DNA from: a bacterium
Lineage (GTDB): Bacteria; Acidobacteriota; Aminicenantia; Aminicenantales; Aminicenantaceae
Direction of reading: 5' to 3'
DNA: 64,000 nucleotides
NCBI GenBank assembly: GCA_018335295.1
Contig: JAGXKI010000003.1
Span: 1-64,000, forward strand
Position numbers and translations under genes: made by a program. Below, one piece after another: positions 24,325 through 29,098 of the stretch (the first letter of the stretch is position 1; every line of letters starts with the position of its first letter). The notes under the pieces are model-generated. The model ran no database searches. It was not told where the DNA came from and saw only the letters and a list, made by a program, of their open reading frames with translations.

Positions 24325-27300
24325 CTAACTTCTCCCTCGCAGATAAGCGATCATTTTGGGCACCACCAATGGAATCACCCGGGGAAGCATCTTGGGCATG
24401 AGGTTATCCATCACTTTGGGCATCAACTCCGGCATCTGTTCTTCCATATAATCGGGCATGGAGATTTTCTGGGAGATCCGTTCCAGCATGGCGGGCATCA
24501 CTTTGGGCATCATCTTGGGGAAAAGTTTGGGAAAAAGCACAGGAAATAGGGGCTTCATCAGATAAAAAAGAGCATCACCGGCCCAACCCAATTTCCCTGT
24601 AAACCTCATCATCTTTCCCATCCCCATAGGCATGGCATCTAACAGTTCAGGCCATAGGGTATCCATCAGTTGGGCAAACCCTTCAGGGGTCATCAACTGG
24701 ATCATGGCTTCAAAAGTGGTCCATTGCCTGGAGACTTCGGGGCTGGGGTCTTTGAACTCCTTCCCCAAAGCTTTACAAGCAAAAGTCGCTAAGTCATGGA
24801 TTTCCATGGAAAGTTTTTTCTTATCCCGAGTCACCCGGAATTGAAACTCACAACAGGGACAAAGACCCAAAACTGCATCCGCTTGAATATCCTGCGCTTC
24901 CTTCAGCCGAGAGGCCCCTATCTCTGCGGCCACAGAAGGCTCTTTGAGTAAAGTCAACACACTCCCACAACAGTGTCCTTCTTCTCGGTTGTGAAACATT
25001 TCTTCGTATCTGACTCCAGGAATGGCCTTTATGATCTCCCTGGGCTGTTCATAAACTTTGGAAACCCGCCCGATATGGCAAGCATCATGCCAGGTGACTT
25101 TTTTGGAGATTGGATGGGTGAACTGGAATTCTCCGGACCGGATTTTCTCGGCCACAACTTCGCTGTAATGCTTGGCTTTTATAGGATAAGGAATGCCCAA
25201 CTTTTCGGCCCATTGAGGGTAATAAAGACGCCACATCATATCACAAGCCGGGCAGGAAGTGATAACGGTATCGGCTCCCGTTTCCTTGACCGCCTGGATG
25301 TTTTTTCTCATGATTTCTTCAAAAACATCCCACTTCCCGGCGACCAGCATAGGAGTCCCACAGCAGTTTTCGATATTTCCCAGGTATGTGAAATCCACTC
25401 CAGCCTTATCCAGAAGGGTGACTGAAGCCGCTCCGATATCATTTTCCACATAGGAAGCGGTGCAACCAGCAAAATAGACGTTTTTGCTTTTCACCTGAGG
25501 TCCATGTTTCTCCCAGAGTTCTTGAGGAAACCAACGGGTCCGGTCTTTTCGGTATCCGGCCCAGATATTCCCTTCTGACCGCAGAGCGGCCCCCATCATT
25601 TCAAAGGGAGGAAAAGTCATCTGTTTATCCTCATGCACCAGTTTGCCTCGAAGTTTCATCCAGGAGGGTTCAATGGGCAAAGAAGACGAACAACGCAGGT
25701 TGCAGAATTCACACGTGGTGCATACCAGCATGGTATCCACCATGAATTGATTCCATTCAGTCCTGCCTTCCATGTATTCCCGAAGCCAGTACCATTTTCC
25801 ACGGGGCGATTGACTCTCCCATCCCCTTCCGAAGAACTGGTCGCACTCATCCAAACAGTATCCGCATTGAGAACACGCATAGGCATACCAAGCCACATCC
25901 GGAGGAATTCCCCGGACTGACTTCTTCAACCTTTCTCCCACCTGAGTCACCACATTGTTTCCAAAAGGCCTGACCAAAGGCTCAAACACATTCCCTACTC
26001 CTAAAATATGGCTGATGAGCTTGCCTCCGAAAACTTTATCCGGATTCAAGACTCCCCTGGAGTCCACTTTCTTTTTAAAAAGTTTGAGTTTCTGAGTCCG
26101 GTTTTTTCCTAAAATCTTTTCGATCTTGCTGGAAAAATAAAGTCCCGTGGAATAAGGACGTCCTCCGTATTTCTCAGCAATTTTCATGATGGTCAGGACC
26201 AGTCCGAAAACAAAATTATAGGAAAACTTTCTCTGATCACTGGGAATAAATCCTAGAATCACAGCCTCAGGCTTTCCGTCTCTCCCTTTTTTGATGATCA
26301 CTCCTTCTTTCACCACCGGTTGATTTACCTTATCCTCGATTTCTTCCATGACATCTCCCAATTTAGGGAGAGGGACCACGATCTCTGCCGGAACCAAGGA
26401 AGGACCCAACCGCTTCACCACCATGAATTTAAACCGGTTTTTCCATTCGTGCTCCGCGATTTTTTGGCTGAGAACTTCCCCCTCACACTTCTTTAAAATC
26501 CGGGGAAGCTGGGGCACAATTTTCTGCCGGTCTTTTTTTCTGAAGGCCAGCACCGCCACATAGGCGGCGGGAAGGATCACTTTCTCCTCGGAAGGATGAC
26601 CGTGATGGGTTTGGACAGGAGCTCGATTCTTCATTTCGGCCATCCGAGGATTGATAAACAGCACAGACCAGATAGGAAGCCCCTGATCGATAAAATCCTG
26701 GAAGACCTGACTGAGCTTGTGGGCATCCGGACAGGCCACAGCGGCCACTCCCGTCTCAGAGAGCTTTTGTACCCGGATGGTCAGCTGAGTGATGAATCCG
26801 GTGGTCCCTTCTGCATCGGAGATGAAATCCAGCTCTTCTCCGGAAAAGTCCTTCACTCTTCCATCAGGGAAAACCACCCGAGCGCTTTTGACATTTTCTG
26901 AAAACCATCCGTATTCAAAAGAGCCAATCCCAGCTCCTCCCTGAGCCAGCCACCCTCCAGCCGAAGAAGAGGGGTAGCTAGTGGGATAGAGAGCCACGCT
27001 TAACCCCTGAGGGTTCAGCTTTCGATCCAACTGCTCCCAGGTAATACCCGGTTCCACAGTCACAGTTTCTTTTTCCTTATCTATAGAGATCACATCCTTC
27101 ATTCTGTAGAAATCCACCACAATGCCTTTCCGGGTGGGAATGATTCCTCCGTAACCTGAAGAGCCTTTACCCCGGGGAACCAAAGGAATTCTTCTCTGGG
27201 AAGCCCAGCGACCCAGTTCCTTTAACTCTGTCTCATTCTGAGGCTGGACCACCGCATCGGGAACAGTTTTTCCCACCAAAGGCTTGAAAATCCCCGGGAT

Positions 27301-27444
27301 AGCGGCGATATCATGACTGTAAAGCAGCCGTTCAGTGGGATTAAAATTGACTCGTTCCCCAAAATTTTGCCCCAGCCATTCCTGGTCTTTTTTGTTCAGT
27401 GAAGACATTTCATTCTCCTCCCTTTCATTTATCTCATTAACCAC
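24325..27444 (-). CDS. Fused FAD-linked oxidase / 4Fe-4S / double CCG-domain oxidoreductase (D-lactate/glycolate dehydrogenase-like)
   Basis: PRGKGSSGYGG FAD motif; CSQCGYCLDEC and CTTCEFCNLRC; NCCGTP and GHCCGS cysteine-rich motifs; unusual M/P-rich C-terminal tail. Confidence 0.85.
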   Translation of the reverse strand: MVNEINEREENEMSSLNKKDQEWLGQNFGERVNFNPTERLLYSHDIAAIPGIFKPLVGKTVPDAVVQPQNETELKELGRWASQRRIPLVPRGKGSSGYGGIIPTRKGIVVDFYRMKDVISIDKEKETVTVEPGITWEQLDRKLNPQGLSVALYPTSYPSSSAGGWLAQGGAGIGSFEYGWFSENVKSARVVFPDGRVKDFSGEELDFISDAEGTTGFITQLTIRVQKLSETGVAAVACPDAHKLSQVFQDFIDQGLPIWSVLFINPRMAEMKNRAPVQTHHGHPSEEKVILPAAYVAVLAFRKKDRQKIVPQLPRILKKCEGEVLSQKIAEHEWKNRFKFMVVKRLGPSLVPAEIVVPLPKLGDVMEEIEDKVNQPVVKEGVIIKKGRDGKPEAVILGFIPSDQRKFSYNFVFGLVLTIMKIAEKYGGRPYSTGLYFSSKIEKILGKNRTQKLKLFKKKVDSRGVLNPDKVFGGKLISHILGVGNVFEPLVRPFGNNVVTQVGERLKKSVRGIPPDVAWYAYACSQCGYCLDECDQFFGRGWESQSPRGKWYWLREYMEGRTEWNQFMVDTMLVCTTCEFCNLRCSSSLPIEPSWMKLRGKLVHEDKQMTFPPFEMMGAALRSEGNIWAGYRKDRTRWFPQELWEKHGPQVKSKNVYFAGCTASYVENDIGAASVTLLDKAGVDFTYLGNIENCCGTPMLVAGKWDVFEEIMRKNIQAVKETGADTVITSCPACDMMWRLYYPQWAEKLGIPYPIKAKHYSEVVAEKIRSGEFQFTHPISKKVTWHDACHIGRVSKVYEQPREIIKAIPGVRYEEMFHNREEGHCCGSVLTLLKEPSVAAEIGASRLKEAQDIQADAVLGLCPCCEFQFRVTRDKKKLSMEIHDLATFACKALGKEFKDPSPEVSRQWTTFEAMIQLMTPEGFAQLMDTLWPELLDAMPMGMGKMMRFTGKLGWAGDALFYLMKPLFPVLFPKLFPKMMPKVMPAMLERISQKISMPDYMEEQMPELMPKVMDNLMPKMLPRVIPLVVPKMIAYLRGRS

Positions 27445-27638
27445 TATATAATATAAATTTTATAGATTCAATAGAGATATTATTTTGCATATACATTTCT
27501 CTCCAGAATGAGACATTTCCCTAATCATGAAAATAACTGATTTGTTGCCAATGTTAAACTTCAAAAGCTCTTTTCTAGGCAGTTCCTCGGGGGGACTGAG
27601 GTTCAGGAAAATTAAAGGTTAAGGTTAAGAGAAGATAG

Positions 27639-27680
27639 ATTGAGGTTCAGATTAAGTTTGAGATTTAGGTCGAGTTAATT
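27639..27680. repeat. Degenerate 6-nt periodic tract (NTTNAG-like)
   Basis: attgag gttcag attaag tttgag atttag gtcgag ttaatt. Confidence 0.5.
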
Positions 27681-27690
27681 CTACTGAATC

Positions 27691-27879
27691 AACCAAAAAG
27701 ACTAGATAGACAAAATCGACCAAACAGACTAAATAGACTAGAATGACGCAAGTAACACTTATAACGCAATAAACGCAAACAACGCAACAAACGAAAGTGA
27801 TATTTCTCGCATTTCTCGCCTATCCAACCAAACAAACCAAACAAACTAACCGAACCAAATAGACTATATGAACTAAACA
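27691..27879. repeat. Degenerate 9-nt periodic array, 21 units
   Basis: aaccaaaaa/gactagata/gacaaaatc/gaccaaaca/gactaaata/gactagaat/gacgcaagt/.../aaccaaaca/aaccaaaca/aactaaccg/aaccaaata/gactatatg/aactaaaca, with no break in register. Confidence 0.85.
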
Positions 27880-27976
27880 GTGTAAATCACCGTATTATGA
27901 GCTCTATTGCTTTATTATCAGCATTTTATGCTCGGTCCGACCCCACAATAATTAGGAATCAATGTCTATTTTCGAA

Positions 27977-29098
27977 CTAACTATAATCTCCGGGTCTCAA
28001 TGTTTCTTTCTGGAGAGTGGCTTTCCTGATCCGATCCTCCTGAGGGACCACTCCTATCCCAGGCAAACCAGGCACTTTAATTGTCCCCTTAGAGGTAATC
28101 TTTATCGGGGGTTCGATTAAATCCTCTGCGTAATACCTTCGGCTCGCCGAAAGGTCATGAGGATACTTGAAGTTGGAGAGAGTAGCCAGATGAATGTTGT
28201 GGGCTCGGCCGATCCCGCTCTCCAGCATTCCTCCACACCAGACAGGAATTGACTTTTGTTCACTGAAATCGTGAATTTTCCGAGCTTCTTCAATTCCCCC
28301 TACTCGTCCCACTTTTATGTTGATAATGCGACCGCTTCCCATTTCATAGGCTTTTCTCACAGCTTCCGCCGAAGTGGCACTCTCATCCAGACACAAAGAG
28401 GTCTGCATTTCCTTCTGTAGCTGACTGTGATCCCAAAGATCATAGGGAGGAAAGGGTTGTTCCAGCATCAACAGGTCGAATCCATCCAGCCGTTTGAGTT
28501 GTTCCTTTTCTTTTATGGAATAGGCTCCGTTAGCATCCACCTGGAGGAGGATTTCCGGAAATTCTTTTCGGACTTCCCGGCAGGGAAAAACATCCCATTT
28601 TTGTTTAATCTTGATTTTTATCCGCTGATATCCTTCATCCAAGAACGAACGAATCCTCTCCTTGAGTTGAGAGACTGAATCTTGAATCCCGATACTCACT
28701 CCTGATGGAATTTCCCTTCTCACCCCTCCATACATTTTCCACAGAGGCAATTCTTTTTCCTTGGCCCGTAGATCCCACAGAGCTAATTCCAGTCCCGCTT
28801 TAGCCATAGGATGACCTTTGAAAATTTTTATTTTCTTGCTGAATTCCTGAGGATGAAAAAGGGAGTATTTAAACAGAAAAGGAATGAAATAATCCTTCAA
28901 CATTAGCCAGGCGGTGGAAGTGGTCTCATAACTGTATAAGGGATCCTTATCTGCCACCACCTCTCCATACCCACACAGGCCTTGGGCGTAAAGCTTGACC
29001 AGAATAAAGGTTCGCTCTTCTTCCCTCCCGAAGCTGGTTTCAAAAAAATGCACCAAGGGCAGTTGAAGGCGCAAGAGCTCGATTCTCTCAATCCTCAT
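27977..29098 (-). CDS. Enolase-superfamily enzyme, o-succinylbenzoate synthase / N-acylamino-acid racemase-like
   Basis: KIKIKQKWD (KxK), DANGAY, EQPF, DES, NIKVGRVGG catalytic pattern; GGMLESGIGRAHN. Confidence 0.82.
   Translation of the reverse strand: MRIERIELLRLQLPLVHFFETSFGREEERTFILVKLYAQGLCGYGEVVADKDPLYSYETTSTAWLMLKDYFIPFLFKYSLFHPQEFSKKIKIFKGHPMAKAGLELALWDLRAKEKELPLWKMYGGVRREIPSGVSIGIQDSVSQLKERIRSFLDEGYQRIKIKIKQKWDVFPCREVRKEFPEILLQVDANGAYSIKEKEQLKRLDGFDLLMLEQPFPPYDLWDHSQLQKEMQTSLCLDESATSAEAVRKAYEMGSGRIINIKVGRVGGIEEARKIHDFSEQKSIPVWCGGMLESGIGRAHNIHLATLSNFKYPHDLSASRRYYAEDLIEPPIKITSKGTIKVPGLPGIGVVPQEDRIRKATLQKETLRPGDYS

Follow-up and report, generated by a model that had tools for sequence, protein, structure and literature searches.

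The 9-nt periodic array at positions 27691–27879 of the window, by which we mean the whole 64,000-nt stretch of contig JAGXKI010000003.1 analysed here, lies at the core of a mosaic repeat with copies dispersed through its genome; the right module of this repeat ends in ...GGTCCGACCCCA. The repeat is dispersed, modular, intergenic and lineage-specific. We favour its interpretation as a proliferating, non-coding intergenic mosaic repeat with a constrained core of phased, degenerate 9-nt words, and consider the chances of this being correct somewhat better than even. No description of such word arrays was found in the literature searched, which included few subscription journals, and the class is apparently undescribed.

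A sequence-only reading of the window had reported a strict array of 21 nonamers, and the array does span 189 bp, or 21 × 9, with its register unbroken. The unit form given at that time, RAC-NNN-NNN, describes the start of 18 of the 21 units, the exceptions being GATATTTCT, CGCATTTCT and CGCCTATCC at 27799–27825; the count of 21 was right, but only 20 units had been typed out, with the first, AACCAAAAA at 27691, missing. Identity within the array at lags of 9, 18 and 27 nt was 0.617, 0.561 and 0.475, corresponding to z values of 9.1, 7.2 and 4.4 relative to 2000 dinucleotide shuffles, among which the highest lag-9 identity was 0.467. When the 64 kb were scanned for 9-nt periodicity without a preset pattern, the array came first, at 0.558, followed by a runner-up at 0.391 (mean 0.270, sd 0.029). 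TRF reported it in fragments only, with periods of 9 or 27, because the units are degenerate. With autocorrelation far above shuffles and similar arrays common in the window genome and present in some relatives, the original observation stands: the array is not a chance pattern and recurs in its genome. It was also correctly read as non-coding, since no ORF of 60 aa or longer lies between the flanking genes; an ORF running across the array, as expected of a protein-coding tripeptide repeat, is absent from the gap. Neighbouring units do resemble each other in blocks (adjacent Hamming distance 3.45 vs 4.51 in shuffled unit order, p = 0.0008), but the cause proposed for this, local unit turnover, is not supported. 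The GAC, AACGCA, TTTCTCGC and AACCAA blocks keep the same order in other copies and are modules, which explains the similarity without local turnover.

All parts of the element are given here on the plus strand. Its left module begins with a GGTTNAG-like stretch of period 6–12, identified from sequence at 27615–27668 (TRF rows 27615–27629 and 27637–27670), and an alignment of copies places a similar stretch ahead of the left anchor in most of the others. The left anchor, GTCGAGTTAATTCTACTGAATC (consensus GTTGAGNNAATTCAACTGAANC), occupies 27669–27690 and has 13 genome copies at ≤3 mismatches, with none for the reversed-pattern control. Nonamer analysis divides the array that follows into six units of RAC-NAR-A type (27691–27744), six mostly of RACGCAANN type with homologous blocks in L353 and L355 (27745–27798), the three T/C-rich units, to which TTTCTCGC blocks correspond in position in other copies (27799–27825), and six of RAC-YAR-AYA type, which the alignment of copies also assigns to the right module (27826–27879). 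The linker GTGTAAATCACCGTATTATGAGCTCTATTGCT (consensus GCCTAAATCACC...; 27880–27911) is the same in L323, L325, L327, L329 and L333, and leads to the right anchor TTATTATCAGCATTTTATGCTCGGTCCGACCCCA (27912–27945), which has 26 genome matches at ≤3 mismatches and 0 for its reversed pattern. As a separate observation, (GGTTNA)n is a second degenerate periodic stretch, of period 6, lying ahead of the 9-mer array at 27600–27670 in the window and in most left-module copies; AAATTCAAAAGTCAAAA-like stretches are often found upstream of it in those copies.

The gap that holds the element measures about 0.53–0.57 kb, depending on the start chosen for the left gene. This gene (24325–27444, minus strand; ATG at about 27408) encodes an FAD-linked oxidase/CCG-domain Fe-S oxidoreductase (Pfam PF01565, PF02913, PF13534 and PF02754), and its right-hand counterpart (27977–29098, minus strand) a mandelate racemase/muconate lactonizing enzyme of the enolase superfamily (PF02746 and PF13378). 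The RAC strand is antisense to both, and the window copy therefore probably does nothing for the genes beside it. No intrinsic terminator was found in the gap; 5 promoter-like sites were counted vs 2.0 expected, which is not informative.

Approximately 30 array loci were detected in the window genome with three RACYARAYA words at ≤3 mismatches; the loci sampled were stretches around array matches, so the sample is biased towards arrays. The left module, in which the GGTTNAG stretch is followed by GTTGAGNNAATTCAACTGAATC and the words, has 13 copies. The right anchor, TTATTATCAG..GGTCCGACCCCA, accounts for 26 matches, and most of the best-matching copies carry 9-nt words and a CCTAAATCACC-like linker ahead of it. 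The two modules occur together in the window, at C102:34374–34571 and at C94:419–668. Copies can differ in part of their array by entire words, as seen in L350, L351 and L354: L351 has AACCAAAAA GACCAGATA GACAAAATA GACCAAACA GACCAAATA AACAAAATG, whereas L354 has AATCAAAAA GACCAAACA GACCAAATA AACAAAATG. Only some copies keep one strict register through all 21 units; in L358 and L360 the T/C-rich part is out of step. The sequence TTATTATCAGNNNNTTANNNNCGGTCCGACCCCA (window 27912–27945; L324, L326 and L330), with its 26 genome matches, is a dispersed repeat itself; it also occurs without 9-mer arrays, has a REP-like look and does not lie beside the Y1_Tnp genes of this genome.

Outside this genome the distribution of arrays is patchy. 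Among 59 relatives, array-rich genomes belong to only two other genera, represented by G002 and G005, with the dialects AACCAGAYA and AACTAGAYA, respectively; nearly all other family members are without arrays, and 4 of 396 genomes in a phylum sample matched at ≤1 mismatch. A GTDB contig scan returned at least 119 stretches, a lower bound on breadth. Among the matches listed, RAC-NAR-AYA arrays were present in many Nitrospira, in Syntrophaceae and other deltaproteobacteria, in WOR-3 and in Aminicenantes, with further examples in Cloacimonadota, Aerophobetes and Methylomirabilota; some of the matches listed look like ordinary simple or coding repeats. The complete genome of Nitrospira moscoviensis contains 272 array matches, and 28 of 79 genomes of its genus contain none. 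Across groups, word position 8 is mostly C or T and position 9 mostly A, neither having been required by the word search. In Nitrospira and elsewhere the arrays form two inverted arms, with the T-arm preceding the A-arm in 54/54 simple two-arm clusters and a loop that is often one base or 9–11 bases; the window-genome loci examined lack T-A inverted arms. A single class may unite the window element with the T-A elements of Nitrospira, on the basis of a shared word grammar and not of homology.

Arrays are strongly depleted inside genes in all eight sets. With gene positions taken from a home-made gene caller whose starts are approximate, 3/45 arrays lie inside genes in N. moscoviensis, where the coding fraction is 0.84 (p = 3e-30), and 2/26 in the window genome (p = 2e-17); N-terminal extensions at pdxA and rplL are the exceptions. 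In the window genome, 11 of 24 classified intergenic arrays lie between convergent genes. Three of its arrays are found 27–87 nt from tRNA genes for Glu, Ser and Cys (L041 10016–10078, L042 13468–13539 and L048 3118–3171). The N terminus of its ribosomal protein L7/L12 (L053 9998–10505) is extended by about 45 residues rich in Lys, Thr and Glu; 9-nt words encode part of this extension, and Pfam PF16320 begins at residue 47. A KOPS-like replication-strand polarity was also considered and rejected; array strand in N. moscoviensis seemed linked to position among the matches listed, but gene orientation explains the pattern. The sampled GC skew of that genome changes sign at about 2.0–2.1 Mb (dnaA at 1.3 kb), and arrays occur on both strands at 2.4–2.7 Mb.

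Two loci illustrate how arrays are gained and altered. The prfB-lysS spacer is 20–24 nt long in many Nitrospira, and in nine it is filled by 80–130 nt of T-A 9-mers placed directly between the stop and start codons; arrays thus arise in individual lineages, at junctions where relatives have none. Other Nitrospira spacers hold different word arrays, such as the 7-mers GCTGAAG or CATCACG, or CGTATCTCGTGAAG. Individual fillers are GCTGAAG words in L253, L255, L256 and L263, CATCACG in L260 and L265, and CGTATCTCG in L264, L271 and L272, and all of these short-word arrays, those of period 7 included, end just ahead of the lysS start codon. Between aligned lysS arrays, substitutions per cell are 0.01–0.03 at word positions 2, 3 and 7 vs 0.41–0.47 at positions 4 and 8, figures that overstate constraint, as the pairs overlap, are non-independent and involve arrays recognised by their framework. 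The few close pairs display the same trend in small numbers. One close pair has 3/92 array positions changed vs 16/60 third codon positions (p = 3e-5), which is not general: some pairs of arrays evolve more slowly than third codon positions and others about equally, and selection and neutrality are not cleanly separated. The sequence comparisons support, but do not prove, a constrained word framework. At pdxA, an element is present in 2 of 30 genomes fetched, those of N. moscoviensis and one other, and the two orthologous elements differ, by eye, by about one unit in one arm. In N. moscoviensis and a Nitrospirota MAG (L134), the two arms enclose an in-frame ATG from which the A-arm could be read as an N-terminal extension of PdxA, predicted in N. 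moscoviensis to be MKLQPNKPNKPNKQEKPLLGITMGDPA. The A-arm continues the pdxA reading frame without a stop in three Nitrospirota genomes (L363, L365 and L134), which would give a P-N-K-rich extension, and in N. moscoviensis it takes the place of the pdxA start region found in congeners.

Were the array a plain minisatellite, replication slippage or unequal recombination would have multiplied a 9-bp unit on the spot, and the resulting array would then have decayed without function. The 9-bp period and the blocks in the window, which resemble local amplification, are in keeping with this, as are the whole-unit differences between dispersed copies and the change of about one unit in the pdxA arm. 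However, across 149 arrays from seven groups adjacent units resemble each other no more than shuffled ones do (1.97 vs 1.98, p = 0.35), with only word position 1 shared between neighbours, which gives units the look of samples from a genome-wide vocabulary, not of products of recent tandem duplication. In the window genome, G002 and G005, units within one array are no more alike than those of different arrays; moreover, one word consensus recurs in several phyla and modules with fixed anchors recur at other loci. We consider simple amplification and decay unlikely, and hypervariable slippage is not supported by the same neighbour comparison. A second account, in which a RAYT (Y1 transposase) mobilises the repeat as a REP/REPIN- or MITE-like element, would fit its dispersed, intergenic, partly palindromic and mosaic nature, the GGTCCGACCCC motif of REP-like look that adjoins the array, and the two Y1_Tnp proteins encoded by the window genome. 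Against this, neither an array nor the GGTCCGACC motif lies within the ~1.5-kb flanks of the two Y1_Tnp genes, and the Y1-rich genomes G511, G456 and G491 have 0, 1 and 9 array matches. Y1_Tnp is absent from array-rich Nitrospira, namely the complete N. moscoviensis genome, G459, G461 and G476; RAYT transposases are thereby excluded as a general driver, and we regard this account of the element as very improbable. Several copies share a right end up to GACCCCACATTAA, and no matching inverted left end was noticed; the analysis turned up neither a mobilising enzyme nor, among the copies examined, terminal inverted repeats or target-site duplications. Spread by segmental duplication or recombination is possible.

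Orientation and folding bear on a further alternative, in which the array is kept for expression control as a cis-acting RNA element, either a T-arm/A-arm hairpin between stop and start codons or an unstructured A/C-rich A-arm serving as a translation leader. In co-directional gaps of N. moscoviensis the A strand is sense in 25 cases and antisense in 4 (p = 1e-4), with the A-arm mostly ending 4–80 nt ahead of the start codon, and sense orientation is also in excess in Delta (9:2), WOR-3 (5:0) and G005 (6:2). The T-A elements at lysS, besides their location directly between stop and start codon, fold with RNA z values from −1.9 to −7.0. This has to be set against the absence of a sense bias in the window genome (5:4), G002 (4:3) and other Nitrospira (8:11), the antisense position of the window array, and the many Nitrospira in which the lysS spacer is simply short. 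The plus strand of the window array folds no better than shuffles (z = −0.9) and the minus strand only modestly so (z = −2.6), and no known structured RNA in Rfam 15 matched at gathering score. Arms pair with their own partners at −43.2 kcal/mol vs −40.7 kcal/mol with arms of other loci, a marginal difference (p = 0.038); precise hairpin pairing is therefore not what is preserved, and a precisely maintained hairpin was rejected. A general role in cis is doubtful, while some copies outside the window seem to have been co-opted, be it as 5′ leaders of mRNAs, as hairpins or as coding sequence for protein N termini. A broader proposal sees the arrays as a hitherto undescribed cross-phylum class of 9-nt-phased sequence. 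A conserved trans-acting factor would impose both the.AC.A.A. framework and the outward T-A polarity; it could be a protein reading RNA or DNA in 9-nt steps or an enzyme writing words from a degenerate template. Genomes without close kinship would then each come to fill their gene junctions with a dialect of one grammar, independently of one another. We entertain this tentatively, as a minority view.

The modules of the window genome (GGTTNA stretch, GTTGAGNNAATTCAACTGAATC, 9-nt words, and linker ending in GGTCCGACCCCA) recur at many intergenic sites with a varying number of words. In the reading that we prefer, that of a proliferating intergenic mosaic repeat, the element would spread and persist as a small non-autonomous repeat tolerated between genes only. 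Its later evolution would proceed mainly through whole-word gains and losses and through substitution at the free positions, chiefly 4 and 8 and to a lesser degree 1 and 6. Selection may maintain the framework.AC.A.A., or a copy-correcting mechanism that follows the strand nine nucleotides at a time may do so. Should the class prove sound, a repeat with a grammar of its own makes up a notable part of the intergenic DNA in some bacteria (the nitrifier N. moscoviensis, for example, has >200 array matches) and escapes ordinary repeat finders through the degeneracy of its units. That one consensus is found in unrelated phyla would call for a shared maker or reader, and at pdxA such repeats appear to rewrite gene starts and protein N-termini.

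Comparison with known systems places the element near several families. Like REP, BIME and REPIN sequences, it is short, non-coding, intergenic, dispersed, mosaic and partly palindromic, with lineage-specific bursts; unlike them, it has no RAYT alongside it in the array-richest Nitrospira, and its core consists of phased degenerate 9-nt words in variable number. With MITEs (RUP, NEMIS and ERIC-like) and Rickettsia palindromic elements it shares the properties of a small non-autonomous intergenic repeat, some copies of which are read in frame as protein extensions, here at pdxA; it differs in its 9-nt word arrays, in the use of the same word in several phyla, and in that no TIRs or target duplications were found here. 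Head-to-tail units, varying in number between dispersed copies and between orthologous pdxA elements, recall minisatellites and VNTRs, in contrast to which neighbouring units here are no more alike than shuffled and resemble draws from a vocabulary common to the genome. The STRR heptamers of Nostocales cyanobacteria are near-perfect short tandem words of 7 nt scattered intergenically in some genomes. The arrays described here likewise string short tandem words across the intergenic DNA of some genomes, but with a highly degenerate 9-nt unit that has fixed positions and, in other phyla, inverted arms.
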